A program made the translations under genes and the position numbers. 64,000 nucleotides of DNA, from positions 2,046,001 through 2,110,000 of the forward strand of contig NZ_CP076060.1 of assembly GCF_018729255.1 (NCBI RefSeq), given 5' to 3'. The notes below the pieces were generated by a model that ran no database searches, was not told where the DNA came from, and was given only the letters and a program-made list of their open reading frames with translations. Positions 3,239 through 56,490 of the stretch are shown piece by piece (position 1 is the first letter of the stretch; every line of letters begins with the position of its first letter). This stretch comes from Cupriavidus sp. EM10. GTDB taxonomy: Bacteria > Pseudomonadota > Gammaproteobacteria > Burkholderiales > Burkholderiaceae.

Positions 3239-4164
3239 TCATTGCCCTGCGGGTGAGGCATTCGTGTTGGTATTGGACAGACCCCAGACATACGCGGTCA
3301 GCATGCGGATGCGCTCCGGCGTCAGGATCTCTTCATGGGCCGGCATATGGCCGTTGTGTCCCTTCAGGATGGCTTCGACGATCACGCCTTCCGAACTGCC
3401 ATACAGCCATACGTTGTCGGACAGGTTCGGCGCGCCAAGCGCCTGGTTGCCCTTGCCGCTCGCGCCGTGACAGGCCGCGCAGGTCGACTTGAACGTGCTT
3501 TCGCCGCGCGACGCCCGAATCGGGTCGTAGGTCAGCCCAGACAGCGAACGGACATACTGCGCCGTATCGCCGGCCAGCTTGGCGTCGATCGCCCCGGCAA
3601 ACGGCGGCATCACGCCATTGCGGCCCTTCGCGATGGTCTGCTGGATCGTCTCGGGGTCGTCACCATAGAGCCAGTCGTTGTCGGTCAGGTTCGGAAAGCC
3701 CCGGCTGCCGCGCGCATCGGAACCGTGGCACTGGGCACAGTAGTTCAAGAACAGGCGCTGGCCGATCTCGCGCGCATCGGGGTCTCCGGCCACCTGCTTG
3801 ACATCCATCTTCAGGTATTTGGCGTAGATCTCGTGTTGCATCTTCTCGGCAGCTTCCCGATGCGCGGCGAGTTCGCCTTGCGACGAGAACTTCAGCACCC
3901 CGGCGTATTTGCCCAGGCCCGGGTAGAGCACCAGGTAGCCCAGGGCGAACACACACGCCAGCAGGAACATCCACATCCACCAGCGCGGCAGCGGGTTGTT
4001 CAGCTCGCGCAGGTCGCCATCCCAGACGTGGCCGGTGTCGTCCGTGGTGCTGACGCCCTTCGGCATCTTGCGTTGCGAAAACAGCAGCCACACGCACCAG
4101 GCGATACCAATGAGCGCGATGGCCGTGATGTAGTAGCCCAGAAATCGGAAATGAAATCGCTCAT
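3239..4164 (-). pseudogene. ccoP: CcoP, diheme cytochrome c subunit of cbb3 oxidase (frameshifted near its start as sequenced)
   Basis: Subunit III of cytochrome cbb3 oxidase, which passes electrons from soluble cytochrome c to CcoO. Two CxxCH heme sites (CAQCH and CAACH) lie near residues 143 and 229 of the restored 308-residue protein, after an N-terminal membrane helix and a second helix typical of CcoP. The true start is the ATG at 4164, giving MSDFISDFW, but one base is missing in the G run at 4137-4139, so the sequence continues as GYYITAI in another frame. Restoring TGGGG joins MSDFISDFW to GYYITAIALIG, the normal family N-terminus. Everything downstream is intact. It starts six bases before the ccoQ stop. 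Most likely a sequencing error. Confidence 0.88.
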
Positions 4165-4169
4165 GGTTA

Positions 4170-4328
4170 CTAGTTCCGGCTTGGATTGTTATGTTCGTCC
4201 GGCAAGGCAAACGGCAGCATCGCCGATTCCTCGTTGGCCGCCTTGCGGCCCGCCGACCAGGCCCACCAGCAGATGGCCAGGAACGTCAGCATCGACAGGA
4301 CGGTGGCAATGGAAGTCACGATCACCAT
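4170..4328 (-). CDS. ccoQ: CcoQ, small subunit of cbb3 oxidase
   Basis: A 52-residue protein with one transmembrane helix (about residues 4-26, ending in CWWAWSAGRK) followed by a short cytoplasmic tail. This is the usual size and form of CcoQ/FixQ, which stabilises the oxidase complex. It sits in the canonical place between ccoO, whose stop is four bases upstream, and ccoP. Conserved WWA and K/R after the helix support the call. Confidence 0.88.
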   Translation of the reverse strand: MVIVTSIATVLSMLTFLAICWWAWSAGRKAANEESAMLPFALPDEHNNPSRN

Positions 4329-4332
4329 GGCG

Positions 4333-5027
4333 TTACTCCTTCGCGGGCGCGGCGATGTCTGTCGCGGGCGCTGCCGCGGCAGGTGCGGTGCCCGTGTCCA
4401 GACGAACGTTGCGACGGTTCAGGCCCAGACCCTGCAGGTACGCGACCATGGCGTCCTCTTCGGTCTTGCCGACCAGCTCTTCCGGTGCGCCCGCGATGTC
4501 GGCGTCTGTATAGGGCACGCCGAGGCGCTGCAGTGCACGCATGCGCACCTGGATCGAATCGGTCGGCAGCGGCGTCTTCTCAAGCCACGGATACGATGGC
4601 ATCACCGACTCGGGCACCACGTCGCGCGGATTGCGCAGGTGGATGCGCTGCCAGTCATCGGAGTAGCGGCCACCAACGCGAGCCAGATCCGGGCCGGTAC
4701 GCTTGGAACCCCACAGGAACGGGTGGTCGTACACCGACTCGCCGGCCGTGGAGAAATGGCCATAGCGCTCGGTTTCGGCCTGCAGCGTACGTACCTGCTG
4801 CGAGTGGCAGCCCACGCAGCCTTCACGGATATAGATGTCCGCCCCATCAGTCGCAGCGGCGAATATGGCGTGATGCCCGGGTCGGGTTGGGTAGTGGAGT
4901 GTTGGAAGAACAGCGGCACGATCTGCACCAGGCCAGCAATACTGACCACGATGATGGTCGCGATAATCAGCCAGCCGACGTTCTTTTCCAGCGTCTCGTG
5001 CCTGAAAAATCCTTGATTCTGAGACAT
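4333..5027 (-). pseudogene. ccoO: CcoO, monoheme cytochrome c subunit of cbb3 oxidase (frameshifted as sequenced)
   Basis: Subunit II of the oxidase: an N-terminal membrane anchor (about residues 16-40) and one periplasmic cytochrome c domain with heme site CVGCH. From the ATG at 5027 the frame reads correctly to the conserved LMGR, then breaks at 4839-4841; the remainder ([13 protein letters not shown] onward) continues in another frame to the stop at 4333. Adding one base in the CGG of the arginine codon restores [16 protein letters not shown], the family consensus, and a 231-residue protein. The start has a strong context and lies 19 bases after ccoN. Because the rest is fully conserved, a sequencing deletion is the likeliest cause. 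Confidence 0.9.
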
Positions 5028-5046
5028 TATCTGCGTCCTCGGCTTG

Positions 5047-6495
5047 TCAGTGGGCGGAAGCCGGCAGGCTGGCCGGAATCGGCGCATCCACGGCGGGCTT
5101 GCCGGCGATGGTGCGGAACACGTTGTAGGCCATGATGAACATGCCACCCAGGAAACACAGGCCGCCCGCCAGACGGATCAGGTAGAACGGATACTTGGCC
5201 TTGACCGCTTCCACGAACGCGTAGGTCAGCGTGCCGTCAGGCTGCGTGGCACGCCACATCAGGCCTTCCATCACGCCGGCGATCCACATCGAGGCGATGT
5301 AGAGCACCACGCCGATCGTGGCCACCCAGAAGTGCAGTTCGATCAGGCGCGTGCTGTACATCTGCTTTTCGCCAAACAGGCGCGGAATCAGGTAGTACAG
5401 CGAGCCGATCGAAATCATCGCGACCCAGCCCAGGGCGCCCGAATGGACGTGGCCGATCGTCCAGTCCGTGTAGTGCGACAGCGCGTTCACGGTCCTGATC
5501 GACATCATCGAGCCCTCGAACGTGGCCATGCCGTAGAACGACAGCGCCACCACCAGGAACTTGAGGATCGGGTCGGTACGCAGCTTGTGCCACGCACCGG
5601 ACATGGTCATGATGCCGTTGATCATGCCGCCCCACGACGGCGCCAGCAGGATCAGCGAGAACACCATGCCCAGCGACTGCGCCCAGTCCGGCAGCGCGGT
5701 GTATTGCAGATGGTGCGGGCCGGCCCACATGTAGGTGAAGTTGAGCGCCCAGAAGTGGACGATCGACAGACGATAGGAGTAGATCGGGCGCTCGGCCTGC
5801 TTCGGAATGAAGTAGTACATCATCCCCAGGAAGCTGGTGGTCAGGAAGAAGCCCACCGCGTTATGGCCGTACCACCACTGGATCATGGCGTCCTGCACGC
5901 CCGCATAGGCGGAATACGACTTCCACATCGACGCCGGCATCTCGATGTTGTTGACGATATGCAGGATGGCGATGGTGAGGATATAGGCGCCGAAGAACCA
6001 GTTCGCGACGTAGATGTGGCGCGTCTTCCTCTTGACAATCGTGCCGAAAAAGACAATGGCGTAGGCCACCCAGACCAGCGTGATCAGGATGTCGATGGGC
6101 CATTCCAGTTCGGCATATTCCTTCGAAGTCGTGATGCCCATCGGCAGCGTGATCGCGGCCGCAACGATGACGAGCTGCCAGCCCCAGAACGTGAATGCCG
6201 CGAGCGGTCCGCAGAACAGGCGCGCCTGGCAGGTGCGCTGCACCACGTAGTACGACGTGGCGAACAGCGCGCTGCCGCCAAATGCGAAGATCACCGCATT
6301 GGTATGCAACGGACGCAGGCGGCCGAACGACAGCCACGGTGTGTTGAAATTCAGATCCGGCCAGATCAATTGCGCCGCAAGCAGAACGCCTACGGCCATG
6401 CCGACGATGCCCCAGACAACGGTCATGACGGCGAACTGCCGCACAACACCGTAATTGAAGGTGTCGACGCGTGGAGACGCGGTGGTGACAGCCAT
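5047..6495 (-). CDS. ccoN: CcoN, catalytic subunit I of cytochrome cbb3 oxidase
   Basis: A 482-residue, 12-helix heme-copper oxidase subunit that reduces O2 at high affinity in the inner membrane. Visible ligands are H64 (low-spin heme), H211 in HNAVGFF and H261-H262 in HHLQYT for CuB, and H349 and H351 in HVHSGALGW for the two hemes. The glutamate in FEGSMMS is the cbb3-type channel residue. It is the first gene of ccoNOQPGH. Its promoter at 6538-6579 carries a class II FNR site, predicting induction at low oxygen. The frame is intact. Confidence 0.97.
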
Positions 6496-6537
6496 TCAGA
6501 CCCCCAACTAAGTAAGAATAAACCTATTGACAGTGTG

Positions 6538-6579
6538 ACTTTAGAAAAACAGGGCGGTCGTCGCGTTGACTTCAATCAA
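6538..6579 (-). promoter_or_regulatory. FNR-activated promoter of ccoNOQPGH
   Basis: The FNR box TTGATTGAAGTCAA lies at 6566-6579 (nine of ten consensus bases). Exactly 22 bases later is a -10 hexamer TAAAGT at 6538-6543. This spacing puts the box at about -41.5, the class II FNR activation geometry. Predicted transcription start is near 6531, giving a leader of about 36 bases before the ccoN ATG. Confidence 0.85.
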
Positions 6580-6653
6580 TCCTTTCGCGCGACACCCGAA
6601 CTGTTTTCGCCGGGTCATGTCAGGGCACCAGATCCCGCACCCGGCCGATACGC

Positions 6654-6821
6654 CTACCGGCTGCGTTCCGCCCCCTGCGGCTTGTCGTTGTCGAGCAGGA
6701 TGGCTTCGGCGGGCCGGTCCAGGTCGTCGTACTGGCCCGCATGCAGCGCCCACCACAGGACCCCTGCGATCAGCGCCACGAGCACCAGGCTCATCGGCAC
6801 CAGCAGATAAAGCGTTTCCAT
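6654..6821 (-). CDS. ccoS: CcoS, cbb3 oxidase maturation protein
   Basis: A 55-residue protein with one transmembrane helix (about residues 4-27) and a short cytoplasmic tail containing GQYDDLDRPAEAILLDND, the conserved FixS/CcoS signature (DDLD..A..IL.DD). CcoS is needed for cofactor insertion into the oxidase. Its ATG directly abuts the ccoI stop codon, so the two are co-translated. It ends about 75 bases upstream of the ccoN FNR promoter. Confidence 0.92.
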   Translation of the reverse strand: METLYLLVPMSLVLVALIAGVLWWALHAGQYDDLDRPAEAILLDNDKPQGAERSR

Positions 6822-9347
6822 TCACGAATCCCCTTCGCGCGCAGCGGCGCTGACGCGCAGCAGCCGCCAGGCATTGGCCACCACCAGCAGCGACGACAAT
6901 GACATGCCGATTCCCGCCATCCAGGCCGTGACGTGGCCCGTGGCCGCCAGCGGGATGGCCACCACGTTGTAGGCGAACGCCCAGCCCAGGTTTTGCCGCA
7001 CCACGCGGCGAGCGCGACGCGCTGTGGCGATGGCGGTGGCGATCTCCGCCACACCGCCGTGCGTCAGCACCGCATCGGCCCCCGCCTGCGCCAGCGGCGC
7101 GCCGCTGCCAATCGCGATCGACACCTGGGCCTGCGCCAGGACCGGAGCATCGTTGATGCCATCGCCCACCGCTAGGACCACCGCCCCGCCTTCCTGCAGC
7201 CCGGCCACGTATTCCCGCTTGCCTTCCGGTGTCACGGCGCCCACGGCGGTGCGCATGCCAAAGCGGCCAGCCCACCAGCGCACGGCCTCCACCCCATCGC
7301 CCGACACCAGGTGGCAACGCACGCCGAGCGAGCCGAGCGCGTCCAGCAATGCGCGGGTCTGGGCACGTTCGACGTCGGATAGCTGGAAACAAGCGAGCAG
7401 GCCGGCGGCGCCGCCCAGCCACACCTCGGTAGCACCCGGGTGGCTCTGGTGCCCGCGTAGACCGGCATCGATATGGGATGAGAGGGCCGCTACGAACTCG
7501 CGGCGTCCCAGGCGAAGCCGGCGGCCATCTACCGAAGCTTCGAGACCTTGCCCTGGCACATTGCGCAGGTCGATCACCGTGGGATTTGCAGTGCCGGCCT
7601 CGTCGGATGACGCCGCAAACGCCCGGGCGATCGGATGCTCGCCACCCTGCTCCATGGCGGCCGCAAGGCGTCGGCAGGCCTGTGCGTCGAGTGCGCCGAA
7701 TGTCTGTGTGGACGCCAGCGCGAAACGCCCTTCCGTCAGCGTGCCCGTCTTGTCGAGCACGACATCGGTCACGCGGGCCAGTGCATCGAGCGCATGCGCA
7801 CGGGTCAGCAGCATCCCCCGACGCGACAACGCCGCGCCCGCCGCCGCCAACGCTGCCGGCGTGGCCAGCGACAGCGCACAGGGACAACTCACAACCAGCA
7901 CCGCCACCGTCACCAGCAGCGCGCGCGACGGATCGATCCACAGTGCCCATACGGCGCCCGTCACGACGGCCATGATCAGCAACGTGCCGACAAACCAGCC
8001 AGCAACGCGGTCGGCCACCTGGGCCAGCCGGGGCTTGTCCGCCAGCGCGCGGTCGAGCACCCCCACGATCTCCGCGAGCCGCGTCTGGGCACCAATGCGG
8101 TCGATGCGCACTTCGAGCGGACTGGCGGCGTTGAAGCAGCCGGCCAGTACGGTGTCGCCCACCGCGCGCTTCACCGGGCGCGCCTCGCCGGTCAGCATCG
8201 ATTCGTCTAGCTCGCTGGCACCGGCCAGCACCACCCCGTCGGCCGGCACGATTTCGCCAGCCTTGACGCGGATGCGGTTGCCTGGCTGCAGCCTGGCAAC
8301 CGGAATGCGCTCGCCCGCGCCACCAGCCTGCGCCAGTCGTTCGCAGGTGGCCGGCAGCTGCCGCGCCAGCATTTCCGCGCCGCTGCGCGATGCCTGGCGC
8401 ACGCGCAGCTCCAGGTATCGCGCCAGGAGCAGGAACGCGACGAACATCGTCACGGAATCGAAATAGACCTCGCCCACGCCGCGCGCGGTAGCGACGGCGC
8501 TGGCCAGGAAGCCCGCCGCCACGCCAATCGCGACCGGCACGTCCATACCCATGTGGCGATGTCGGAGCGACCGCCAGGCGCCAGCAAAGATCGGCCAGGC
8601 GGAATAGAAAACGACCGGAACGGTCAGTGCGAAGCTGGCCCAGCGCATCAGTTGCAGCTGGCCGGGATCGATCGTGGCTTCGTGGGTGTAGAGCGGCCAC
8701 GCGTACATCATCACCTGCATCATGCCAAGCATGGCCACGGCCATCCGCATCAGCAGGCTGCGGCGCTCGCGGCGGTCCTGCTGATCGGAGCGCGACACTT
8801 CGAATGGCCATGCCGCATAGCCGATATCGGCCAGGCTCGAAAGCAGGTCGGCCACGCCTTGTGACGCGTCGCGCCAGCGCACGATGACGCGGCGCGTCGC
8901 CACGTTGGCCACCACCGATTCCACCCCGTCGAGTTGCGTCAGATGCTGCTCGATCAGCCATGCGCATGCGGCGCAGCGGATGTTTTCAGGCGCCAGCGTG
9001 ACCTCGGAGCGGCCATCGCCGGCCGGCCGCACGAACTGGCCGCGCAATTCCGGGGTGTCATAGGCAGCCCAGACGGGCTCGGCTTCCCGGCGGGCGTCGG
9101 CGTCGATCGGGCGCGCAAAGCGCGTGACATCGCCGTACAGGTGCCCGAAGCCGGCGGCGTGCAGCGTCTGGGCCAGCGTCTGGCAGCCACCGCAGCAAAA
9201 ACTGCGAGCGTGGCCGTCAATCTGCGCGACAAACGGTGCGGCGGCCTTCAGTGGCTGGCCGCAATGGAAGCAATCGGTGGATGAATCAGAGAAGAAAGCG
9301 GCAGAAGATGCCGAAGAAGACGCCGAAGAAGACGCCGAAGAAGACAC
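6822..9347 (-). CDS. ccoI: CcoI, P1B-type copper ATPase for cbb3 oxidase assembly
   Basis: An 841-residue copper-translocating P-type ATPase. In order: a cysteine-rich N-terminus (CFHCG, CCGGC), a heavy-metal-associated domain with CAACAW, membrane helices, the CPC motif in VSCPCALS, the phosphorylation motif DKTGTLT and the hinge GDGINDAP. FixI/CcoI exports copper for CuB. The start is a GTG at 9347 preceded by only a weak ribosome site. The first ~20 residues are a low-complexity Ser-Ala run encoded by a 12-base DNA repeat, not typical of the family, so the real start could differ. It has its own FNR promoter at 9466-9507 and is followed without gap by ccoS. Confidence 0.93.
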   Translation of the reverse strand: MSSSASSSASSSASSAAFFSDSSTDCFHCGQPLKAAAPFVAQIDGHARSFCCGGCQTLAQTLHAAGFGHLYGDVTRFARPIDADARREAEPVWAAYDTPELRGQFVRPAGDGRSEVTLAPENIRCAACAWLIEQHLTQLDGVESVVANVATRRVIVRWRDASQGVADLLSSLADIGYAAWPFEVSRSDQQDRRERRSLLMRMAVAMLGMMQVMMYAWPLYTHEATIDPGQLQLMRWASFALTVPVVFYSAWPIFAGAWRSLRHRHMGMDVPVAIGVAAGFLASAVATARGVGEVYFDSVTMFVAFLLLARYLELRVRQASRSGAEMLARQLPATCERLAQAGGAGERIPVARLQPGNRIRVKAGEIVPADGVVLAGASELDESMLTGEARPVKRAVGDTVLAGCFNAASPLEVRIDRIGAQTRLAEIVGVLDRALADKPRLAQVADRVAGWFVGTLLIMAVVTGAVWALWIDPSRALLVTVAVLVVSCPCALSLATPAALAAAGAALSRRGMLLTRAHALDALARVTDVVLDKTGTLTEGRFALASTQTFGALDAQACRRLAAAMEQGGEHPIARAFAASSDEAGTANPTVIDLRNVPGQGLEASVDGRRLRLGRREFVAALSSHIDAGLRGHQSHPGATEVWLGGAAGLLACFQLSDVERAQTRALLDALGSLGVRCHLVSGDGVEAVRWWAGRFGMRTAVGAVTPEGKREYVAGLQEGGAVVLAVGDGINDAPVLAQAQVSIAIGSGAPLAQAGADAVLTHGGVAEIATAIATARRARRVVRQNLGWAFAYNVVAIPLAATGHVTAWMAGIGMSLSSLLVVANAWRLLRVSAAAREGDS
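9304..9345. repeat. 12-base tandem repeat encoding the Ser-Ala N-terminus of CcoI
   Basis: Copies of GAAGAAGACGCC start at 9313 and 9325, with a partial third at 9337 and a diverged nine-base copy at 9304. Copy-number changes would stay in frame and only alter the length of the SSSA run. Confidence 0.8.
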
Positions 9348-9465
9348 CTGTACCCGCCCGGCTGAAGGGGCTTCTGTGGGGTCGGCAAATGCGTTGCCGG
9401 ATGCCAGACGTGGCGCGAGGGGGCTGTAGTAGGAGACGGCATGGCGCGCTTTTATTACCCAGTGG

Positions 9466-9507
9466 ATACTAGGTACCTTGCGCGCGCCCCACCTTGATAC
9501 AAATCAA
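9466..9507 (-). promoter_or_regulatory. FNR-activated promoter of ccoIS
   Basis: A perfect FNR palindrome, TTGATTTGTATCAA at 9494-9507, is followed after exactly 22 bases by a -10 hexamer TAGTAT at 9466-9471, matching class II FNR promoters. Predicted start is near 9459, leaving a leader of about 110 bases before the GTG of ccoI. Confidence 0.88.
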
Positions 9508-9546
9508 ACTTGGCGGAACGACCACGGAATCGGCGCCAGCGGGTGT

Positions 9547-9570
9547 CCGGCAAACAACGGGTCTTGCCGG
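9547..9570 (-). terminator. Weak hairpin downstream of zapE
   Basis: A seven-base perfect stem (CCGGCAA / TTGCCGG) with a ten-base loop lies 20 bases past the zapE stop. It has no U-tract, so termination activity is doubtful. Confidence 0.3.
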
Positions 9571-9590
9571 ATGCCCTGACGCCGGGCGAA

Positions 9591-10688
9591 TCAGGTCAGC
9601 GAAGTGTCCATCACCCGGCGTTCGGATTCCAGGTACTCGCGCGACTGCATCTCAATGATCCGCGACACCGTCCGATGGAACTCGTTGGCCATCTGCCCTT
9701 CCGTGTACAGCTCGTCAGCCGGCACCTCGGCCGACATCAGCAGCTTGACCTTGTGGTCGTAGAACACGTCGATCAGCCACGTAAACCGGCGCGCCTCGGA
9801 CGACATCCGCGGCGTCATCTTTGGTACGTCCGAAAGAATCACCGTGTGGAACTGCGAAGCAATTTCCAGATAGTCGTTCTGCGAGCGCGGGCCGCCGCAC
9901 AGGGTGGCGAAGTCGAACCAGACCACGCCGTTCGCCTTGCGCAGCGCCTTGATCTCGCGATGTTCGATATGGAGAATCGGCGATTCGTCGGCGGTACCGG
10001 CGATCGACACGAACGCGTCGCGCAGCGCGGCGCTCGCCTCGCGGCCCAGCGGCGTGTGATACGCCTGCACCTGCTCCAGCGCCCGCTTGCGGTAGTCGAT
10101 GCCGGCGTCGACGTTCAGCACGTCGAGCTTGGTCTGCAGCAGGTTGATGGCCGGCAGCACGCGGTCTCGGTGCAGGCCGTCCGGGTACAGCAGGTCCGGA
10201 CGGTAGTTCGACGTCATCACGAACTGCACGCCGTTGTCGAACAGTTGCTGCAGCAGCCGGTGCAGGATCATGGCATCCGCCACGTCGCTGACGTGGAACT
10301 CGTCGAAGCAGATCAGGCGGAAGCGGCGCGCGATGCGCTTGGCCAGCTCGTCGAGCGGGTCGGGACGGCCCCGCAGCTCCTCAAGCTCGCGATGCACCTC
10401 GCGCATGAATTCGTGGAAGTGCAGCCGGGTCTTGCGCACCACGGGCACGCAGGAATAAAAGCTGTCCATCAGGAACGACTTGCCGCGCCCCACGCCACCC
10501 CACATGTACACGCCCTTGGGCACGTCGGGATGCACCAGCAGCTTCTTCAGCGCGTTGTTGCGGCGGCTCTTGTACGCCACCCACTCGTCGTAGCACTGCT
10601 GCAGCCGCATCACGGCGCGCAGTTGCGCCTCGTCGGACTGGTAGCCGCGCTGCTTGAGTTCGTGTTCGTAAAACTCGGTGACGTTCAT
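9591..10688 (-). CDS. zapE: ZapE / AFG1-family AAA+ ATPase
   Basis: A 365-residue single-domain P-loop ATPase. Walker A is GGVGRGKS (about residue 65) and Walker B is ICFDEFHVSD (about residue 130), with downstream sensor segments MTSNYRPDLLY and DGLHRDR typical of the ZapE/AFG1 family. E. coli ZapE associates with the divisome under low-oxygen conditions; mitochondrial AFG1 acts on respiratory complexes. It is next to the 2-oxoglutarate dehydrogenase operon, as in other Burkholderiales, but separated from lpdA by a strong terminator, so it probably has its own promoter. The frame is full length. Confidence 0.93.
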   Translation of the reverse strand: MNVTEFYEHELKQRGYQSDEAQLRAVMRLQQCYDEWVAYKSRRNNALKKLLVHPDVPKGVYMWGGVGRGKSFLMDSFYSCVPVVRKTRLHFHEFMREVHRELEELRGRPDPLDELAKRIARRFRLICFDEFHVSDVADAMILHRLLQQLFDNGVQFVMTSNYRPDLLYPDGLHRDRVLPAINLLQTKLDVLNVDAGIDYRKRALEQVQAYHTPLGREASAALRDAFVSIAGTADESPILHIEHREIKALRKANGVVWFDFATLCGGPRSQNDYLEIASQFHTVILSDVPKMTPRMSSEARRFTWLIDVFYDHKVKLLMSAEVPADELYTEGQMANEFHRTVSRIIEMQSREYLESERRVMDTSLT

Positions 10689-10719
10689 GTCGGGGCCTGG
10701 GAAATACGGGGTGCTGCAA

Positions 10720-10756
10720 GCGAAAACGGCGCGCCGCGAAAAAAAGCGGCGCGCCG
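10720..10756 (-). terminator. Terminator of the odhA-odhB-lpdA operon
   Basis: An 11-bp perfect stem (CGGCGCGCCGC / GCGGCGCGCCG, arms at 10727-10737 and 10746-10756) with an eight-base loop. On the minus strand it is followed by TTTTCGCTT. It lies 25 bases past the lpdA stop. Confidence 0.8.
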
Positions 10757-10780
10757 GTGCTCACCAGAGGTGAACGGGTA

Positions 10781-12205: not shown

Positions 12206-12352
12206 GGGAAATATCTCTTTGGCACGTCATGCCCGCGCCAATATGGCAGGCATCCGGAGGCATCGTGCGGACGATGCGCTCGCCGGGTCCCCGCACCGGA
12301 GCGCGGGACGACGACAAACGAAAGACGGAGAGTCTGTCTGGGACAGGACCGA

Positions 12353-13714: not shown

Positions 13715-16566
13715 TTACTTGGTCAGAACAAAGCCCTTGAGCTTGGAGAACGCGGCTTCCAGCAGCGCCTTCTGTTGCTCGTTGTGCTTTGCGTAGTAGC
13801 CCACCGCCGGCGAAGCCGAGGCGGGACGACCGGCATAACCGAGCTTCTGGCCTTCCGTCATGTTTTCCATGATGTAGTGCTGGACGAAGAACCAGGCACC
13901 CTGGTTCTGCGGCTCGTCCTGGCACCACATGATTTCGGTCGCGCCGGGGTACTTCTTGAGTTCGGCGGCCACGGCCTTGTGCGGGAACGGATACAGCTGC
14001 TCCAGGCGGATGATGGCGGTGTCGGTCGCCTCGCGTTCCTTGCGGGTGTTGACCAGGTCGTAGTAGACCTTGCCCGAGCACATGATCACGCGCTTGACCT
14101 TGCTGGCGTTCAGTTCCTCGTGATCGGGGATCACGGTCTCGAAATGGCCCTTGGCCAGGTCGGACAGCGGCGACACGGCGTCCTTGCTGCGCAGCAGCGA
14201 CTTCGGCGTCATGATCACCAGCGGCTTGCGGAACAGACGGATCATCTGGCGACGCAGCAGGTGGAAGATCTGGGCCGGCGTGGTCGGCTGCACGACCTGC
14301 ATGTTGTGGTCTGCGCAGAGCTGCAGGAAACGCTCGATACGGGCCGAGCTGTGTTCCGGACCCTGGCCTTCGTAGCCGTGCGGCAGCATCATCGTCAGGC
14401 CCGAGGCGCGGCCCCACTTGACTTCGCCCGACGAGATGAACTGGTCGATCACCACCTGGGCGCCGTTGACGAAGTCGCCAAACTGGGCTTCCCAGATCAC
14501 CAGCGCGTTCGGTTCGGCGGTCGAGTAGCCGTATTCGAAGCCGAGCACGGCTTCTTCGGACAGCACCGAGTCGATCACCGTGAACGGCGCCTGGTTGTCG
14601 GACACGTTCTGCAGCGGCACGTACGAGCCGGCATCCCAGCGCTCGCGCGCCTGGTCATGCAGCACGGCGTGGCGGTGCGTGAAGGTACCGCGGCCGGCGT
14701 CCTGGCCGGTGATGCGCACCGGGTAGCCCGAAGCGACCAGCGAGGCGAAGGCCAGGTGTTCACCCATGCCCCAGTCCAGCATCTGCTCGCCCTTGCCCAT
14801 GTTGGCACGGTCCTTGACGACCTTTTCAACCAGCGGGTGCAGCTTGAGCTGTTCCGGAATCGTGGTGATGCGCTCGGCCAGACGCTTCAGTTCCGTCATC
14901 GGAACGGCGGTGTCGGCGGCATCGGTCCACTTGCGGTTCAGGAACGGCATCCAGTCCACGGCGAACTTGTTCTTGAAGTTCGACAGGACCGGGTCGACCG
15001 TGTGCTTGCCGGCGTCCATGGCGGCACGATAGCCCTTGACCAGCTCGTCACCGAAGTCGGCGGCGGTCAGGTTCTGGGCCACCAGCTTGTCGGCGTACAG
15101 CTTGCGCGTACCGGCGTGCTGGCCGATCTTCTTGTACATCAGCGGCTGCGTCATGGCAGGGGTGTCCTGCTCGTTGTGACCCAGCTTGCGGAAGCAGATG
15201 ATGTCGACCACGACGTCCTTGTTGAATTCCATGCGGAAGTCAACGGCCAGCTGCATGGCGTACACCACGGCTTCGGGATCGTCGCCGTTCACGTGCAGCA
15301 CCGGGGCCTCGATCATCTTGACCACGTCCGTGCAATACAGCGTCGAACGTGCGTCGCGCGGATCCGAGGTGGTGAAGCCGATCTGGTTGTTGATGACGAT
15401 GTGCATCGTGCCGCCCGTGCCGTAGCCGCGGGTCTGCGCGAGGTTCAGCGTTTCCATCACCACGCCCTGGCCGGCAAAAGCCGCGTCGCCGTGCACCTGC
15501 ACCGGCAGCACTTCCTTGTGGCCGGCGTCGCCGCGGCGTTCCTGGCGCGCCTTCGACGAGCCTTCCACCACCGGGTTGACGATTTCCAGGTGCGACGGGT
15601 TGAACGCGAGCGACAGGTGAACCGGGCCGCCTTCGGTCGAGACATCGCTCGAGAAGCCCTTGTGGTACTTCACGTCACCGGCCGGCAGGTCGTCGACGTG
15701 CTTGCCTTCGAATTCGGCGAACAGGTCGGCCGGCATCTTGCCCAGCGTGTTGACCAGCACGTTCAGACGGCCGCGGTGGGCCATGCCGATAACGATTTCC
15801 TGCACGCCCTTGCTGCCGGAGTGCTGGATCAGTTCGTCCATCGCGGCGATGAAGCTTTCGCCGCCTTCCAGCGAGAAGCGCTTCTGACCGACATACTTGG
15901 TGTGGAGGAAGCGCTCCAGGCCTTCGGCCGCGGTCAGGCGGTCGAGGATGTGCTTCTTTTCTCCAGCGTGAACACGGGCTTGGAACGCGTGGTTTCCAGG
16001 CGCTCCTGCCACCAGCGCTTCTGCGCCTGGTCGCTCACGTACATGAACTCGGCGCCGATGGTGCCGCAGTAGGTCTCGCGGAGGTTGTTGAGCAGCTCGC
16101 GCAGGCTCATCGACTCCTTGCCGAAATACGTGTTGCTGGCATTGAAGACGATGTCGAGGTCGGCCTCGGAAAAACCGTAGAACGCCGGATCCAGGTCAGG
16201 CAGGGGCGGACGCTCCTGGCGCTTGAGCGGATCGAGGTCGGCCCAGTGCGAACCGATGTTGCGGTAGGCGGCGATCAGCTGCGTGGCAGCGACGCGCTTG
16301 CGGCCCATGTCGGAATCGGCCGAGGCAACAATGGTCTTGATGGGGCCCTGCTTGGCGCGCTCGGCGAACGAGGCGACGATCGGTGCGTGGGGGATATCGC
16401 GGGCGTTGGAACCATCCACAGCCGGGACATTCTGCATCGCGTCGAAATACGCGCGCCAGTTGTCGGGGACCGAGCTGGGATTCTGGAGATAGGCCTCGTA
16501 CAGCTCTTCCACATAGGGGGCGTTGCCGCCGAAGAGGTACGAATTGCTTTGATACTGCTGCATCAT
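13715..16566 (-). pseudogene. odhA: 2-oxoglutarate dehydrogenase E1 component (frameshifted as sequenced)
   Basis: Thiamine-diphosphate E1 (sucA type) that decarboxylates 2-oxoglutarate. The first frame (ATG at 16566, MMQQYQSNSYLFGGNAPYVEEL) carries the N-terminal ~200 residues to PVFTLEK and then fails. The rest, from KKHILDRLTAAEGLERF to the C-terminal GFVLTK, is intact in another frame, including GMAHRGRLNVL and the ThDP region. The break lies in a run of four A at about 15958-15961 on the minus strand; a fifth A gives TLEKKKHILDRL, the family sequence, and 950 residues. Loss of this enzyme would break the TCA cycle, so a sequencing deletion is the likely cause. Upstream, an extended -10 (TGCTATGCT, 16780-16788) is a possible promoter. 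Confidence 0.93.
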
Positions 16567-17608: not shown

Positions 17609-18711
<1,103 letters not shown>

Positions 18712-25100: not shown

Positions 25101-25120
25101 ACAGGCGCCACTGAAATGAA

Positions 25121-25150
25121 AAGGGAGACCTCGCAAGGCCTCCCTTTCTT
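25121..25150. terminator. Bidirectional terminator between the small lipoprotein and ntrC
   Basis: The stem AAGGGAGACC / GGCCTCCCTT has one mismatch and a short loop. It is followed by TTCTT on the plus strand and preceded by A-rich sequence that gives TTTTCATTT on the minus strand. It lies between convergent genes. Confidence 0.7.
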
Positions 25151-30428: not shown

Positions 30429-30684
30429 TGATTCAAGTCGCGGCACCGTTTCAGTGCCGAAGCCGGTGAATTGCACCGAACCAGCACCAAAACAGCGCAT
30501 CCGGTTGCCGCCATTTTTCGGGCCGCTCGCAACGGCCGGGCGCTAGAATAGCGCCGATTCCGTCTGACTCCCAGCGAAGATTTGCGCTTTGTTGCCGCCG
30601 GATCCGGCAGCCGCCGGTTTCCGGTCGCATGCCAGCGCCCAAGTCAGCCGTCCGCCCGCTTTTCCATTAGATCCGTCACCCAGA

Positions 30685-44782: not shown

Positions 44783-44800
44783 GCCACGGCCACTCACCGG

Positions 44801-46400: not shown

Positions 46401-46445
46401 TCCCGCCTTCCCATCCCGCTTCTCACAGCATTCTTCTCGCACATC

Positions 46446-47831: not shown

Positions 47832-47873
47832 GGCGGGCAGCACCCCACAAAAAGCAAGCGGAGAACATAAGAA

Positions 47874-50800
47874 ATGTCTCATTTTTTGGATCGGTTGAAG
47901 TTCCTGTCGCGCGTGAAGTCCACGTATGCCGACGGGCATGGCGCAGTGGTCAATGAAGACCGCACGTGGGAAAACAGCTATCGCAGCCGCTGGCAGCACG
48001 ACAAGATCGTGCGATCGACACACGGCGTGAACTGCACGGGCTCCTGTTCGTGGAAGGTCTACGTCAAGAACGGCCTGATCACCTGGGAGACCCAGCAGAC
48101 CGACTATCCGCGCACCCGCCCCGACCTGCCCAACCACGAGCCGCGTGGCTGCCCGCGTGGCGCCTCGTACAGCTGGTACGTCTATTCGGCGCAGCGCGTG
48201 AAATATCCGATGATCCGTGGCCGCCTGATGGAAATGTGGCGCGAGGCCCGCCAGACCATGGACCCCATCGCCGCCTGGGAATCGATCAGCCAGGACCCCG
48301 AAAAGGCCGCGCGCTACAAGAGCGTGCGCGGCCAGGGCGGCTTTGTGCGCGCGGACTGGAATACCGCCACCGAGATCATCGCCGCCGCCAATGCCTATAC
48401 GGTCAAGCAGTACGGCCCGGACCGGGTAATCGGATTTTCGCCAATTCCGGCGATGTCGATGGTCTCGTATGCAGCCGGCGCGCGCTACCTGAGCCTGATC
48501 GGCGGCGCCTGCCTGTCGTTCTATGACTGGTATTGCGACCTGCCGCCCGCCAGCCCGCAAATCTGGGGCGAGCAGACCGACGTGCCCGAATCGGCCGACT
48601 GGTACAACAGCACCTACCTGATGGTCTGGGGTTCGAACGTGCCGCAGACCCGTACCCCCGACGCGCACTTCTATACCGAAGTCCGCTACAAGGGCACCAA
48701 AACCGTGGCCGTGTCGTCGGATTTCGGCGAAATGGTCAAGTTCGGCGATATCTGGCTGGCCCCGAAGCAAGGCACCGACGCCGCGCTGGCGATGGCCATG
48801 GGCCACGTGGTGCTCAAGGAATTCCACACCACGGGCAAGTCGTCGTATTTCCGCGATTACGTGAAGCAGTACACCGACATGCCGATGCTAGTGCTGCTGC
48901 GGTACCAGGACGGCACGCTGGTGCCCGACCACTTCCTGCGCGCGTCCCACCTGGACGGCAGCCTGGACCAGGCCAACCATCCCGAATGGAAGACGCTGGT
49001 GATCGACCAGGCCAGCGGCGAGATCGTGGCGCCGAACGGTTCCATCGGCTTCCGCTGGGGCGAAGCCGCCCACGACGACGGCGCCAAGGTGGGCCGCTGG
49101 AACCTGGAGATGAAGGACGGCGGCAGCGGCCACGATATCGACCCGCGACTTTCGCTGATCGGCCATGAAGACGAGGTCGCCGAGGTGGGCTTCCCGTACT
49201 TCGGCGGCGAGCACGACGCGCTGCTGCGCCGCCGCGTGCCGGTGCGCCGGCTCACGCTGGCCGATGGCACCCCGGTGCGCGTAGCCACCGTCTACGACCT
49301 GCAGATGGCCAACTACGGCGTCGACCAGGGCCTGGGCGGCCCCAACGTGGCCGCATCGTTCGATGACGAAGTGCCCTACACGCCGGCCTGGCAGGAAAAG
49401 CACACGTCCGTGCCGCGCCATCTCGTGATCCAGGTGGCGCGCGAGTTTGCCGACAACGCCGACCGCACCCACGGCAAGAGCATGGTGATCGTGGGCGCGG
49501 CGCTGAACCACTGGTATCACAACGACATGATCTACCGCGGCATCATCAACCTGCTGATGATGTGCGGCTGCGTGGGCCAGAGCGGCGGCGGCTGGGCCCA
49601 CTACGTCGGCCAGGAAAAGCTGCGTCCGCAGTTTGGCTGGGCGCCGCTGGCGTTCGGCTCCGACTGGTCGCGCCCGCCGCGCCAGATGAACGGCACGTCG
49701 TTTTTCTACAACCACACGAGCCAGTGGCGCCACGAGAAGCTGGGCGTCGACGAGATCCTGGCGCCGACGGCCGATTTCAAGCGCTACCACAACCTGTCGC
49801 TGCTGGACCTGAACGCCAAGTCCGAACGCATGGGCTGGCTGCCGTCGGCACCCCAACTCGGCCGCAACCCGCTCGATGTGATGGCCGACGCTCGCGCCGC
49901 CGGCAAGGACCCGGTAGCCCATACCGTCGAACAGCTGAAGTCCGGCGCGCTGCAGTTTGCCTGCGACGATCCTGACAACCCGGCCAACTTCCCGCGCAAC
50001 ATGTTCGTATGGCGGTCGAACATCCTGGGCAGTTCGGGCAAGGGCCACGAATACTTTCTCAAGTATCTGCTGGGCACCCAGAACGCCGTATTTGGCGACG
50101 AGGCCGATGCCATCAAGCCCAGCGAGGTCAAGGTGCGCCCCGCCGCCGAGGGCAAGCTCGACCTGCTGACCGTGCTGGACTTCCGCATGAGCACCACCTG
50201 CCTGTATGGCGACATCGTGCTGCCCACGGCTACCTGGTACGAAAAGGACGACCTGAATACGTCGGACATGCACCCGTTCATCCACCCGCTGTCCGAAGCC
50301 GTGCAGCCGCTGTGGGAAAGCAAGACCGACTGGGAAATCTACAAGGCCATCGCGAAGACGTTCACCGAGATCGCCGGCCCGTACCTGGGCACGCGCGAGG
50401 ACCTGGTCTGCACGCCGCTGCTGCACGACACCCCGGGCGAACTGGGCCAGCCGTTCGAACCGAAGGACTGGAAGTACGGCGAATGCGACCTGATCCCGGG
50501 CAAGACCGCGCCGTCGATGACCGTGGTGGAACGCAACTACGCCGACATCTACAAGAAGTTCACGTCGATCGGGCCGCTGCTGGACAAGCTGGGCAACGGC
50601 GGCAAAGGCATCAACTGGGACACGAAGCATGAAGTCCACGAGATCGGCCACCTGAGCAAGACCGTGACCGAGCCGGGCGTCAGCTACGGCCGCCCGCGGC
50701 TGGAAACGGCCATCGATGCCGCCGAGATGATCCTGACCTTCGCGCCCGAGACCAACGGCCACGTGGCCGTGAAGGCCTGGGATGCGCTGTCGAAGATCAC

Positions 50801-51634
50801 CGGCCGCGACCATACCCACCTGGCCACGGGCCGCGAGCACGACAAGATCCGCTTCCGCGACGTGCAGGCGCAGCCGCGCAAGATCATCTCCGCGCCGACG
50901 TGGTCGGGCCTGGAATCGGAGGAAGTCAGCTACAACGCGGGCTACACCAACGTCCACGAACTGATTCCATGGCGCACGCTGACCGGCCGCCAGCAGTTCT
51001 ACCAGGACCATCGCTGGATGCTGGACTTCGGCGAAGGCGCGTGCGTCTACAAGCCGGCCATCGACACCAAGACCGTGGGGCCGATGCTGGGCCGCAAGCC
51101 CAACGGCAACCCGGAACTGGTGCTGAACTGGATCACGCCGCACCAGAAGTGGGGCATCCACTCCACCTATTCGGACAACCTGCGCATGCTCACGCTGTCG
51201 CGCGGCGGCCCGCACGTCTGGATCTCGGAAGCCGAGGCCAAGGCCAACGGCATCCGCGACAACGACTGGGTGGAGGTGTTCAACGTCAACGGCACGCTGA
51301 CGGCCCGGGTGGTGGTGTCGCAGCGCGTGCCGCAGGGCATGTGCCTGATGTATCACGCCCAGGAAAAATCGTCAATGTGCCAGGTGCGGAAATGAGCGGC
51401 ATGCGCGGGGGCATCCATAACTCGGTCACGCGGGCCGTGACCAAGCCCACGCACATGATCGGCGGCTACGCGCAACTGGCGTATGGCTTCAACTACTACG
51501 GCACGGTTGGCAGCAATCGCGACGAATTCGTGATCCTTCGCAAGATGAACAAGGTGGACTGGCTGGAAGGCCCGCGCAAGGAAGAACCGTCCCCCCAAAA
51601 CAAGGCAGAAAAGACTGAAGGAGCCTGGCAATGA
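47874..51634 (+). pseudogene. narG: NarG, alpha subunit of respiratory nitrate reductase (frameshifted near its end as sequenced)
   Basis: The Mo-bisMGD catalytic subunit, reducing nitrate to nitrite on the cytoplasmic face. The FS0 cluster ligands are visible as HGVNCTGSCSW plus the distal Cys in PRGCPRGAS, and the Mo-ligand Asp region is LMVWGSNVPQTRTPDAH. The frame is correct for about 1164 residues, to MYHAQEK, then ends prematurely at 51395. In another frame IVNVPGAEMSGMRGG and GGYAQLAYGFNYYGTVGSNRDEFV continue to a TGA at 51634 that overlaps narH. One extra A in the A5 run at 51364-51368 restores QEKIVNVPG and a 1253-residue protein. A sequencing deletion is most likely. Confidence 0.95.
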
Positions 51635-53181
51635 AGATCCGCGCTCAAGTGGCCATGGTGCTGAACCTCGACAAGTGCATCGGCTGCCATACCTGCTCCG
51701 TGACCTGCAAGAACGTCTGGACCAGCCGCGAAGGGGTCGAGTACGCATGGTTCAACAACGTCGAGACCAAGCCCGGCGTCGGTTTTCCGAAGGAATGGGA
51801 GAACCAGGACAAGTGGAACGGCGGCTGGACGCGCCATGCCGATGGCAGCCTGACGCCGCGCCAGGGTGGCAAGGGAAAGATCCTGTCGAACATGTTCGCC
51901 AACCCGAACCTGCCGCAGATCGACGAATACTACGAGCCGTTCACCTACGACTACGAGCACCTGCAGAAGGCCCCGCTGGTGGAAACCCCACCCACGGCAC
52001 GCCCCGTTTCGGCCATCACCGGCAAGAAGATGGACAAGATCGAATGGGGCCCAAACTGGGAAGACGACCTGGGCGGCGAATTCGATTCGCGCAGCCGCGA
52101 CAAGCTGTTCGACGAGATCCAGAAGGACATGTACTCGACATTCGAGAACACGTTCATGATGTACTTGCCACGGCTTTGTGAACATTGCCTCAATCCGACC
52201 TGCGTGGCGTCGTGCCCGTCGGGGTCGGTCTACAAGCGCGAGGAAGACGGCATCGTGCTTGTCGACCAGGACAAGTGCCGCGGCTGGCGCATGTGCATCT
52301 CCGGCTGCCCCTACAAGAAGATCTACTTCAACTGGCAGAGCGGCAAGGCCGAGAAATGCGTGTTCTGCTATCCGCGCATCGAGGCCGGCCAGCCGACCGT
52401 CTGCTCCGAGACCTGCGTGGGCCGCATCCGGTATCTGGGCGTGATGCTCTACGACGCCGACCGCATCGAACAGGCCGCCTCGGCGGCCGACGAGCGCGAC
52501 TTGTACCAGTCGCAGCTGGACATCTTCCTGGACCCCAACGACCCGGCCGTGCAGGCCGAGGCGCTGCGCCAGGGCATCGCCCAGAGCTGGATCGACGCCG
52601 CGCGCAAGTCGCCGGTCTACAGGATGGCAGTCGAATGGAAGGTGGCCTTTCCGCTGCACCCGGAATACCGCACGCTGCCGATGGTCTGGTACATCCCGCC
52701 GCTCTCCCCGATCCAGTCGGCCGCCGAGGCCGGGTTCATGGGGAGGAACGGGATGATTCCCGACGTCAAGAGCCTGCGCATCCCCGTGAAGTACCTGGCC
52801 AACCTGCTGACCGCCGGCGACGTCGTCCCGGTGCTGGGCGCACTGGAGAAGATGCTGGCGATGCGCGCCTACAAGCGCGGACAGGCCGTGGACGGCATCG
52901 AGGACCTGGCCGTGCTCGAACAGGTGGGCCTGACGCCCGCCCAGGTCGAGGACATGTACCAGACCATGGCCATCGCCAACTACGAGGACCGCTTCGTCGT
53001 GCCGTCGTCGCACAAGGAAATGTCCGAGGACAGCTTCGACGAGAAAGGCAGCTGCGGCTTCAGCTTCGGCAACGGCTGCTCGGGCGGCACATCGGACGGC
53101 ACACTGTTCGGCCGCAAGAAGCCACAGCCCGAAGTGGCCTATGCCGACCTGCCGCGCTCGCGCAAGGCGCTGGCGACCTGA
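51631..53181 (+). CDS. narH: NarH, iron-sulfur beta subunit of nitrate reductase
   Basis: A 516-residue electron-transfer subunit that carries three [4Fe-4S] and one [3Fe-4S] cluster between NarI and NarG. Cysteine groups in order are CIGCHTCSVTCK near the N-terminus, CEHCLNPTCVASCP, CRGWRMCISGCP (Trp in place of a Cys marks the 3Fe site) and CVFCYPRIEAG with CSETCVGR. Its ATG overlaps the restored narG stop by four bases, supporting that reading of narG. Confidence 0.97.
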   Translation: MKIRAQVAMVLNLDKCIGCHTCSVTCKNVWTSREGVEYAWFNNVETKPGVGFPKEWENQDKWNGGWTRHADGSLTPRQGGKGKILSNMFANPNLPQIDEYYEPFTYDYEHLQKAPLVETPPTARPVSAITGKKMDKIEWGPNWEDDLGGEFDSRSRDKLFDEIQKDMYSTFENTFMMYLPRLCEHCLNPTCVASCPSGSVYKREEDGIVLVDQDKCRGWRMCISGCPYKKIYFNWQSGKAEKCVFCYPRIEAGQPTVCSETCVGRIRYLGVMLYDADRIEQAASAADERDLYQSQLDIFLDPNDPAVQAEALRQGIAQSWIDAARKSPVYRMAVEWKVAFPLHPEYRTLPMVWYIPPLSPIQSAAEAGFMGRNGMIPDVKSLRIPVKYLANLLTAGDVVPVLGALEKMLAMRAYKRGQAVDGIEDLAVLEQVGLTPAQVEDMYQTMAIANYEDRFVVPSSHKEMSEDSFDEKGSCGFSFGNGCSGGTSDGTLFGRKKPQPEVAYADLPRSRKALAT

Positions 53182-53198
53182 CCGAACCGGAGAACACC

Positions 53199-53885
53199 AT
53201 GACCATCCATCGCGTGCTGAGCGCCGTGCTCAGCTATCCGGAGCAGGCGCTGATCGACGGCCTGGCCGACATCGACTGGGCGCTGGCCGAATGGCCGCAG
53301 GCGCGAGACATGCTGGCGCCGCTGACCGACATGCTGCGCCGCGAACCGCTGATCCGGCTGCAGGAAAACTACGTGGCCACGTTCGACCGCAACCCGGCCC
53401 ACTCGCTGCACCTGTTCGAGCATGTGCACGGCGAAAGCCGCGATCGCGGCCAGGCAATGGTCGACCTGCTGGAGGAATACCGGCGCGACGGCTTCGACCT
53501 GACCACGGCCGAGCTGCCCGACTACGTGCCGCTGTTCCTGGAATTCCTGGGCGCACTGGTCATCGACGGCAAGGAGGCGCGTGCCGGGCAACTGCTGGGC
53601 GACGCCATCCACGTGATGGCGGCCATCGGCGACCGCCTGGCGCGCAGCGAAAGCCCGTACGCCGCCGCGTTTTGTGTACTGCGCACGCTGACCGATGTCC
53701 AGCCGCAGCCCCCGGAAGAACCGCCCGTGCACGACATGGACGAGGCGATGGAGACGTTCGGCCCGGGCGCGGACGGGGTGGAGCCGCTGCTCGCCCGCAA
53801 ACCCGACGTCGAAACGGTCCGCTTTTACAAGCGGGACAAGGTAGCCGCTCCGCGCGAGACGCCGTCAGCCATTCACCCCTGCTAA
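53199..53885 (+). CDS. narJ: NarJ, nitrate reductase molybdenum-cofactor assembly chaperone
   Basis: A 228-residue all-alpha chaperone of the NarJ/DmsD family that holds NarG during cofactor insertion. The conserved pattern includes the N-terminal VLSAVLSYPEQ, the HLFEHVHGESRDRGQAM motif and DYVPLFLEFLG. It starts 17 bases past narH with CGGAGAA upstream and ends with an extended acidic region of about 60 residues. Confidence 0.95.
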   Translation: MTIHRVLSAVLSYPEQALIDGLADIDWALAEWPQARDMLAPLTDMLRREPLIRLQENYVATFDRNPAHSLHLFEHVHGESRDRGQAMVDLLEEYRRDGFDLTTAELPDYVPLFLEFLGALVIDGKEARAGQLLGDAIHVMAAIGDRLARSESPYAAAFCVLRTLTDVQPQPPEEPPVHDMDEAMETFGPGADGVEPLLARKPDVETVRFYKRDKVAAPRETPSAIHPC

Positions 53886-53900
53886 CCGAGGACCCTCACC

Positions 53901-54584
53901 ATGAACCTGGTCCATCAATTCCTGTTCGGGATCTACCCGTATATCGCCGCCGCCATCTTCCTGTTCGGCAGCCTGGCGCGCTTCGAGCGCGAGCAGTACA
54001 CCTGGAAATCCGACAGCTCGCAGATGCTGTACCGTGGCAACCTGCGCGCGGGCAACATCCTGTTCCATGTAGGCATCCTCGGCCTGTTCTTCGGCCATAT
54101 GGCCGGCCTGCTCACGCCTGTGGCCGTATGGGACGCCCTGGGCGTCTCGCACAGCCTGAAGCAGGCCGTGGCCATGACGGCCGGCGGCGTGATGGGCACC
54201 ATGTGCCTGGCCGGGCTGCTGATCCTGCTGCACCGCCGCCTGACCAACGCCCGCGTGTCGGCGGTGACCCGAACGGGTGACAAGGTGCTGCTGCTGTGGC
54301 TGCTGGTCACGCTGCTGCTGGGGCTGTCGACCATCTTCGCCTCGGCCAGCCACATGGACGGCCACATGATGGTGCAACTGATGACCTGGGCCCAGCATGT
54401 CGTCACGCTGCGTGGCGACGCCGCCAGCTACGTGGCCGACGCCCCGCTGGTGTTCAAGGCACACCTGTTCATGGGCATCTCGCTGTTCGCGATCTTCCCG
54501 TTCACCCGGCTGGTGCATGTGTGGAGCGGCTTTGCGTCGGTGGGCTACCTCGGACGTGCCTGGCAGCTGGTGCGCAGCCGCTGA
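53901..54584 (+). CDS. narI: NarI, cytochrome b gamma subunit of nitrate reductase
   Basis: A 227-residue, five-helix membrane subunit that oxidises quinol and anchors NarGH. Heme b ligands are in NILFHVGILGLFFGH (two His in helix 2) and in FKAHLFMGISLFAIFPFTRLVH (two His in helix 5). It begins 15 bases after narJ. The operon continues with a carbonic anhydrase 11 bases later. Confidence 0.96.
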   Translation: MNLVHQFLFGIYPYIAAAIFLFGSLARFEREQYTWKSDSSQMLYRGNLRAGNILFHVGILGLFFGHMAGLLTPVAVWDALGVSHSLKQAVAMTAGGVMGTMCLAGLLILLHRRLTNARVSAVTRTGDKVLLLWLLVTLLLGLSTIFASASHMDGHMMVQLMTWAQHVVTLRGDAASYVADAPLVFKAHLFMGISLFAIFPFTRLVHVWSGFASVGYLGRAWQLVRSR

Positions 54585-54595
54585 GAGGAATCGCC

Positions 54596-55294
54596 ATGCA
54601 CACGATCGAGCGCCTGCTGAAAGGCTTCGAACGTTTCCAGCAGCACTATTTCGAGGATGCCCCGGCGCTGTTCGACGCCCTGCGCGTCGGCCAGCATCCT
54701 CAGACATTGCTGATCGGATGCAGCGATTCGCGCGTGGACCCCGGCCTGTTGCTGGGCAGCGATCCGGGCGATCTCTTCACCGTCCGCAACGTCGCCAACC
54801 TGGTCCCGCCTTGCAGCGAAATGGAGACTGGACGGCTCCATGGCGTGTCGGCCGCGATCCAGTTCGCGGTGGAGCAACTGCGCGTGGCCAGGATCATTGT
54901 CATGGGTCATGGCGGCTGTGGAGGAATTCGAGCATTGTTGGCGCGGCCCGAGGCTGAGGGCGACACCGCACCGGCGCGGGCCGGCCAGGATTTCATCGGT
55001 CCCTGGGTGCGCATCGCTGCACCCGCCCGCCACCTGGTGGAACAGACCATGCCCGGCGCAAGCGCCGAGCAACGTCAGCGTGCCTGCGAGCAGGCATCGA
55101 TCCTGGTGTCGCTGCGCAACCTCGAGTCGTTCCCGTTCGTGCGTGCGGCGCGCGAGCGTGGCGAACTGACCTTGCATGGCTGGTACTTCGATCTCGCCGC
55201 CGGCGCCCTGCTTGCTTACTCGGATCGCGCCGACAGCTTCCTGCCACTGGTTTGCCCGCTGCCCGACGCCGCCGTGCGTCCGGGACGTTGTTAA
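54596..55294 (+). CDS. Beta-class carbonic anhydrase within the nar cluster
   Basis: A 232-residue beta-carbonic anhydrase that interconverts CO2 and bicarbonate. Zinc ligands and catalytic dyad are C42, D44 and R46 in CSDSRVD, with H105 and C108 in HGGCGG. ATG at 54596 has GAGAGGAA upstream, 11 bases after narI, so co-transcription with narGHJI is likely. Anaerobic nitrate respiration yields CO2 and consumes protons; bicarbonate handling is a plausible but unproven link. No signal peptide, so it is cytoplasmic. Confidence 0.92.
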   Translation: MHTIERLLKGFERFQQHYFEDAPALFDALRVGQHPQTLLIGCSDSRVDPGLLLGSDPGDLFTVRNVANLVPPCSEMETGRLHGVSAAIQFAVEQLRVARIIVMGHGGCGGIRALLARPEAEGDTAPARAGQDFIGPWVRIAAPARHLVEQTMPGASAEQRQRACEQASILVSLRNLESFPFVRAARERGELTLHGWYFDLAAGALLAYSDRADSFLPLVCPLPDAAVRPGRC

Positions 55295-55318
55295 GCAAAC
55301 CCTACCCGGAATGGACTC

Positions 55319-56490
55319 ATGACAGAACACTGGCTGAAACTCGCTGGACGGCGATTGCTGCCGCTCGTCCAGGGCGGCATGGGCATCGGCATTTCCGCCC
55401 ATCGCCTGGCCGGCACCGTGGCCGCCCACAATGGCATGGGCACGATTGCCAGCATCGACCTGCGCCACCATCACGAAGACCTGATGGCGCAGACGCGCGG
55501 GACACACGACAAGGAGAAGATCGAGGCGGCCAACCGCGTGGCGCTCGATCGCGAGATCCAGGCCGCGCGGGCGCTGTCAGGCGGCCACGGGCTGATCGCC
55601 GTGAATGTCATGAAGGCGGTGGGCTCCCATGCCCAGCTGGTGCGCCAGGCCTGCGAGAGCGGCGCCGACGCCATCGTCATGGGTGCCGGCCTGCCGCTTG
55701 ACCTGCCCGAACTGGCCGCCGGCCATCCGAAAGTCGCGCTGATTCCGATCCTGTCCGAAACGCGCGGCATCGGCCTGGTGCTGCGCCGCTGGATGAAAAA
55801 GGGCCGCCTGCCCGACGCCATCGTGATCGAGCATCCGGCACACGCCGGCGGCCATCTTGGCGCCGCCACGATCGAGGATCTGGGCAATGACCGCTTCTCG
55901 TTTGCCCGCGTGCTGACCGAATGCCGCGAACTGTTCCACACGCTAGGCCTGGCGTGGGAGAGCATTCCGTTGATCCTGGCCGGGGCATCAATAGCCACGA
56001 AAAGGTGCGCCACTGGCTTGGCGAGGGTGCCTCGGCCGTGCAGCTGGGAACCGCATTCGCCGTGACCGAGGAATGCGATGCCCATCCTGCCTTCAAACAG
56101 GTACTGGCCACGGCCACGCCGGAAACCCTGCGCGAATTCACCAGCGTGGCCGGGCTGCCCGCACGTGCCGTGCTGACGCCCTGGCTGTCGCGCTATCTGT
56201 CGAGCGAAACCCGCCTGCAACGCCGCGCGAAGCCCCGCGACTGCCTGGAGGGTTTCGACTGCCTGCAGGCCTGCGGATTGCGCGACGGCGTGGCCAGGAT
56301 CGGCCAGTTCTGCATCGACCTGAAACTCGCGCAGGCTGTTCGCGGCGACGTGGAGCGCGGCCTGTTCTTCCGTGGCAAGGGCAAGCTGCCATTCGGGGAC
56401 GCCATCCGGCCCGTTGCCGAGCTGATGCACTACCTGCTGACGGGCGAAAAGCCCGCCGCGCTGGCCCTGGCGTCTGCGTCCCCTGCCTGA
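55319..56490 (+). pseudogene. Nitronate-monooxygenase-like FMN protein with C-terminal Cys cluster (frameshifted as sequenced)
   Basis: Restored, a 390-residue TIM-barrel flavoprotein of the NMO/2-nitropropane dioxygenase (FabK-like) family. FMN-site segments are LVQGGMGIGISAHRLAGTVA, DAIVMGAGLPL, IVIEHPAHAGGHLGA and, after repair, ILAGGINSHEKVRHWLGEGASAVQLGTAF. One base is missing in the G4 at 55982-55985; a fifth G joins the two frames. Beyond the usual barrel, C309-x5-C315-x3-C319-x12-C332 could bind a metal or Fe-S cluster. It follows the carbonic anhydrase by 24 bases. Nitronate monooxygenase activity itself is only a family label; detoxification of nitrogen compounds made during nitrate respiration is inference. 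Confidence 0.85.

Follow-up and report, generated by a model that had tools for sequence, protein, structure and literature searches.

The window analysed here is the whole 64,000-nucleotide stretch at bases 2046001-2110000 of contig C1, in a 6.66 Mb genome of four contigs, and it contains five genes whose coding sequence changes frame once at a missing base. Three lie on the minus strand: ccoP, encoding cbb3 oxidase subunit III (3239..4164), where the base is missing after 4136, within the first codons; ccoO, encoding cbb3 oxidase subunit II (4333..5027), where it is missing after 4839; and odhA, encoding the E1 component of 2-oxoglutarate dehydrogenase (13715..16566), where it is missing after 15958. 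The remaining two are on the plus strand and comprise narG, encoding the nitrate reductase alpha subunit (47874..51634; base missing after 51363), and a nitronate-monooxygenase-like (NMO-like) gene of family PF03060 (55319..56490; base missing after 55983). For ccoO, odhA, narG and the NMO-like gene, the ortholog in the congener G022 is among the evidence. The alignment placement of the five sites agrees with the coordinates given in an earlier note on this DNA, and the claim made there that the five genes are each one base short is borne out, as every loss is private to the window when compared with all five colinear congeners. The same five single-base losses are also seen in local six-way alignments. 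The five congeners, compared here much as the note had proposed for the closest Cupriavidus genomes, all read through the five sites in a single frame. Apart from the missing base each gene stays colinear with the congeners, in keeping with the view that the genes are otherwise intact. Within the NMO-like gene, the Pfam NMO profile (PF03060) is matched from 13 to 212 in one frame and from 201 to 329 in the next. A comparison of 30 loci, the genome's own and 29 from congeners, covers CcoO and not ccoP, because the 30 loci end inside the latter gene; CcoO occupies two frames at the own locus compared with a single frame in 29 of 29 congener loci.

Single-base losses in the window are not confined to these genes. 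Five congeners (G022, G042, G053, G029 and G031) carry the region in largely colinear form at 89–92% nucleotide identity, and small indels private to each genome were counted taking one genome at a time. Named sequences nearest to the genome are from Cupriavidus, the best named match to ccoN being that of C. gilardii at 91%. The count for the window is 16 private one-base deletions with four one-base insertions, while the same test yields one deletion and no insertion in G022, none of either in G042, one and two in G053, and one and four in G029. G031 has 22 deletions and 17 insertions, many with opposite-signed neighbours, and was left out as a yardstick because it is both more distant and too noisy. 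Window identity to G022, G042 and G029 is 91.2–92.5%, compared with 92.9–93.0% for those three among themselves, and G022 and G053 are closer sisters at 95.6%. Judged from these alignments, branch length alone cannot account for the 16-fold excess of deletions in the window. When 43 window coding sequences (51.9 kb) were aligned, the filtered events were those of ccoO, odhA, narG and the NMO-like gene, with ccoP excluded because the filter discards the first 150 nt of a gene. None of the remaining 11 window deletions is seen as an event in the interiors of these 43 coding sequences. Those at 6507, 9417, 10766, 12304, 12339, 16662, 21931, 30504 and 30664 are each private relative to five of five congeners, and those at 25116 and 56581 relative to all four congeners aligning there. 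One-base insertions at 30581 and 30669 adjoin the deletions at 30504 and 30664, and the events across 30504..30664 may partly reflect ordinary divergence. As deletions and insertions cluster at 30504-30669 and at 25116-25145, in probable intergenic DNA, a small number of the window's 16 deletions may be of this ordinary kind.

The wider chromosome was surveyed gene by gene, over 420 kb of C1 around the window plus five separate regions totalling 355 kb, which surround (i) ileS, leuS and the division cluster, (ii) rpoB, (iii) nuo, (iv) mutS and (v) valS, with G022 and G053 as references. This yielded 468 aligned genes with 395 kb of interior coding sequence. An event was kept if it was no closer than 150 nt to the ORF start and 60 to the end, in sequence whose local identity was 0.8 or higher, and if no opposite-signed frame-changing event occurred in the same genome within 100 columns. 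On these terms the genome's own assembly has 47 private one-base deletions (27 from the first block, where an unrounded identity filter retains 27 of 28, and 20 more), 10 one-base insertions and one 10-base insertion, compared with 14 frame-changing indels of any length for the two references combined in the same 395 kb. A crude per-gene count made before this filtering gives 63 of 273 genes net-shifted in the own assembly, but also 18 and 16 in the references, largely close to ORF starts called too far upstream. Because some ORFs are called too long at the start, event positions were also compared by hand with matched protein-family stretches. By this hand count 33 of the 47 own deletions, in 30 genes, fall inside the matched stretch, versus none of the 10 own one-base insertions and at most one of the 14 reference events, that one at the stretch edge; the family scans of own and reference genes behind these figures are alike in kind and are not matched gene for gene. 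Genes with own deletions were scanned with NCBIfam and then, mostly where NCBIfam failed, with Pfam, and the others were treated likewise. The 14 deletions outside family stretches are in part upstream of the stretch (polA, nuoJ, maeB, pcm) and in part in genes without a match; four of the 14 reference events and one of the 10 own insertions are in genes with no family match at all and are hence unjudged.

Two further observations were made in the course of the C1 survey. Six private one-base insertions lie within about 200 bases upstream of the family match in rluC (G000:C1:2366566-2366758), where the sequence is locally 94–99% identical to both relatives, and this cluster may be an error of another kind or a genuinely divergent patch. 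Separately, a one-base loss is present in the own copy of a group II intron reverse transcriptase/maturase gene (G000:C1 near 3069748; L241:12948-14648 in G022), which is otherwise locally identical across the three genomes.

The deletions have a distinct relationship to homopolymer length. An assembled run of three or more bases is touched by 41 of the 47, where chance would predict 12.6% of positions; the other six touch no run longer than two, which counts against an artefact. Taking the true run length as the assembled length plus one, the loss rate is 0.003% at a length of two, 0.04% at three, 0.6% at four, 10% at five (23/221) and 30% at six (8/27), equivalent to a roughly sixteenfold rise in loss probability per added base for runs of three to five. 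An alignment-free count is consistent with such loss: runs of at least six bases occur at 109 per Mb in the window compared with 162–252 in the five congeners, and their depletion has the same sign in both larger blocks. At the five original sites, the earlier placement at homopolymers needs qualifying in that the runs are two to five bases as assembled. In ccoO, odhA and the NMO-like gene the relatives have a different base at the site, so that a longer run there is inferred and not directly visible; this holds wherever relatives differ at a site, and it counts against the artefact reading. Relatives likewise carry another base at the site in several genes of the survey, often at a synonymous third position, and some losses probably appear beside rather than in a run because the relatives' differing base hides it. 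The proposal that the affected runs are of G or A in the coding direction fails to generalise. Deleted letters at the 47 sites, read in that direction, are G in 21, C in 15, A in seven and T in four, so that 28 of 47 are purines (p = 0.24), and the purine pattern of the five sites was small-number chance. On the plus strand 26 of 47 are purines (p = 0.56), and the loss is thus strand-neutral.

The sampling covered C1 and, in small samples, the chromid C2 and the plasmid C4. On C2, four own one-base deletions occur in 17.9 kb of interior coding sequence (30 CDS), and neither reference has a frame-changing indel in that sample, these events being counted without a family check. On C4, an unpolarised comparison of 20 kb with C. 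metallidurans pMOL28 gives 13 one-base deletions and four insertions; seven deletions and three insertions are within CDS, and four of those seven deletions are outside runs. The chromid and plasmid samples agree in sign with C1. The plasmid stretch itself (L157; G000:C4:1-20000) includes a cnr nickel-efflux region and is about 96% identical to pMOL28, and 64% of it is 99.2% identical to a C. pauculus plasmid. At the level of the whole genome, completeness is 97.5 compared with 99–100 in 53 of 59 congeners, a lower value that fits the presence of split genes and that may have other causes. In one congener, G038, the ccoN match is broken into overlapping segments, 1-301 and 299-482, each in an open frame of its own (G038:C1:2657970-2659414), and its assembly may harbour a similar frameshift.

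If the deletions were real, they could represent slippage in a mutator or recently decaying strain, with the five genes as young pseudogenes. We regard this as very unlikely, although as the least improbable of the alternatives. Mutator strains defective in mismatch repair accumulate single-base indels at homopolymers in a length-dependent manner, and the present deletions share both properties; slippage likewise favours homopolymers and can favour deletion. The present genome differs from such strains in that no internal stop interrupts its matches to MutS_V and MutL_C, which lie in open frames of 917 and 699 aa (an observation at the domain level only), in the ratio of 47 deletions to 10 insertions, and in the damage to genes expected to be indispensable. 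A deletion divides the only clear D-Ala-D-Ala ligase gene (ddl; C1 near 3095904) into two partial matches of 93 and 82 bits, compared with one whole match of 192 bits in each of G022 and G053. The next own hits to the ddl domain score at most 39 bits, above the family cut-off, and are probably other ATP-grasp enzymes as similar weak hits occur in both relatives. Deletions are also carried by carA, nadB, nuoD, pstC and rpoE. With ddl split, indispensable genes are not spared, as would be expected of real pseudogenes in a mutator strain. The description of the five window genes as essential or co-operonic needs qualifying here, since odhA alone among them is near-essential and ddl, outside the window, is the stronger essential-gene case. 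Counting against an artefact, rpoB, ftsZ and infB were searched and have no internal stop. Real slippage would in addition have had to mutate about 30% of inferred six-base runs. Selection on the broken genes is compatible with either origin: the third codon position accounts for 79% of own-lineage substitutions in broken genes, 81% of those downstream of the deletion and 80% of those in intact genes, so that no relaxed selection is seen by this codon-position test, and young pseudogenes would show none either. Deletions per long run are 0.038 in the least conserved gene quartile versus 0.020 in the most conserved (20 versus seven deletions). This twofold difference would also be expected from real decay, although over-long ORF calls contribute to it.

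A mixed origin, with the assembly mostly in error and at least one of the five genes truly frameshifted, is marginally less probable again. The NMO-like gene and narG, both dispensable, would be candidates. The tests applied are collective, no single site by itself distinguishes an error from a true deletion, and the references too hold their 14 frame-changing indels. However, all five sites show the error profile, and given this fit and the scarcity of reference events within family stretches (at most one), the prior for a true frameshift at any given site is low. Programmed sites, with the frame restored at the run by ribosomal frameshifting or transcriptional slippage, are extremely improbable. 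A and G are the usual slippage letters, and the five frame changes are located at runs of these letters; elsewhere, however, runs of C and T are also affected, and the runs at the five sites are short as assembled. Genes of the programmed type (surveyed with GeneTack, PMC3711429) similarly extend one coding sequence over two frames at a short run, but the frame change here is not conserved, as all five congeners are single-frame. An equally negligible prospect is that the deletions are real and that ribosome or RNA polymerase slippage at short runs would rescue hundreds of frameshifts, including that in ddl.

Our results instead support a model in which the five frameshifts are almost certainly errors of the deposited assembly and not mutations. 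Systematic loss of bases at homopolymers, as the earlier note had suspected, is the best fit to a pattern that is one-signed, dependent on run length, strand-neutral and present at every sampled replicon. An artefact is favoured because such losses are rare in two relatives and affect genes whose loss should not be tolerated, and because long runs are depleted yet without relaxed selection. In mechanistic terms, the assembly consensus would under-count homopolymers, and the most plausible cause is a long-read assembly with insufficient polishing, the platform being presumed. The underlying reads would then be expected to show longer runs than those assembled. As loss climbs steeply with run length, any gene with a run of four to six bases has a real chance of being split.

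Comparable errors have been described. Kastor (PMC12007338) reports deletion errors after homopolymers and includes one long-read assembly in which pseudogenes fell from 23.3% to 5.6% after correction, and the Polypolish report (PMC8812927) describes homopolymer-length errors as usually remaining in long-read-only bacterial assemblies. The present deletions resemble the residual homopolymer indels of long-read assemblies set out in these reports and in Homopolish (PMC8011154), which are mainly homopolymer deletions that split genes and which inflate pseudogene counts, as here. No mechanistic difference from this class is seen, the present case being matched to it by error profile only, and it fits an already known class of assembly artefact and not a real feature.

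These findings have consequences for how the genome is read. If the sampled rate holds, extrapolation from 47 deletions per 395 kb of coding sequence, or from 33 when only family stretches are counted, would give some 450–650 coding deletions genome-wide, which flags the whole 6.66 Mb assembly. Pseudogene counts and claims of gene loss drawn from the present genome are not usable before a read-level check. The earlier caution that loss of cbb3 oxidase, oxoglutarate dehydrogenase or nitrate reductase should not be deduced from this sequence is upheld, such a deduction being unsafe. This removes a mistaken conclusion that respiration and TCA capacity have been lost, and in the living organism all five genes (ccoP, ccoO, odhA, narG and the NMO-like gene) are very probably intact.
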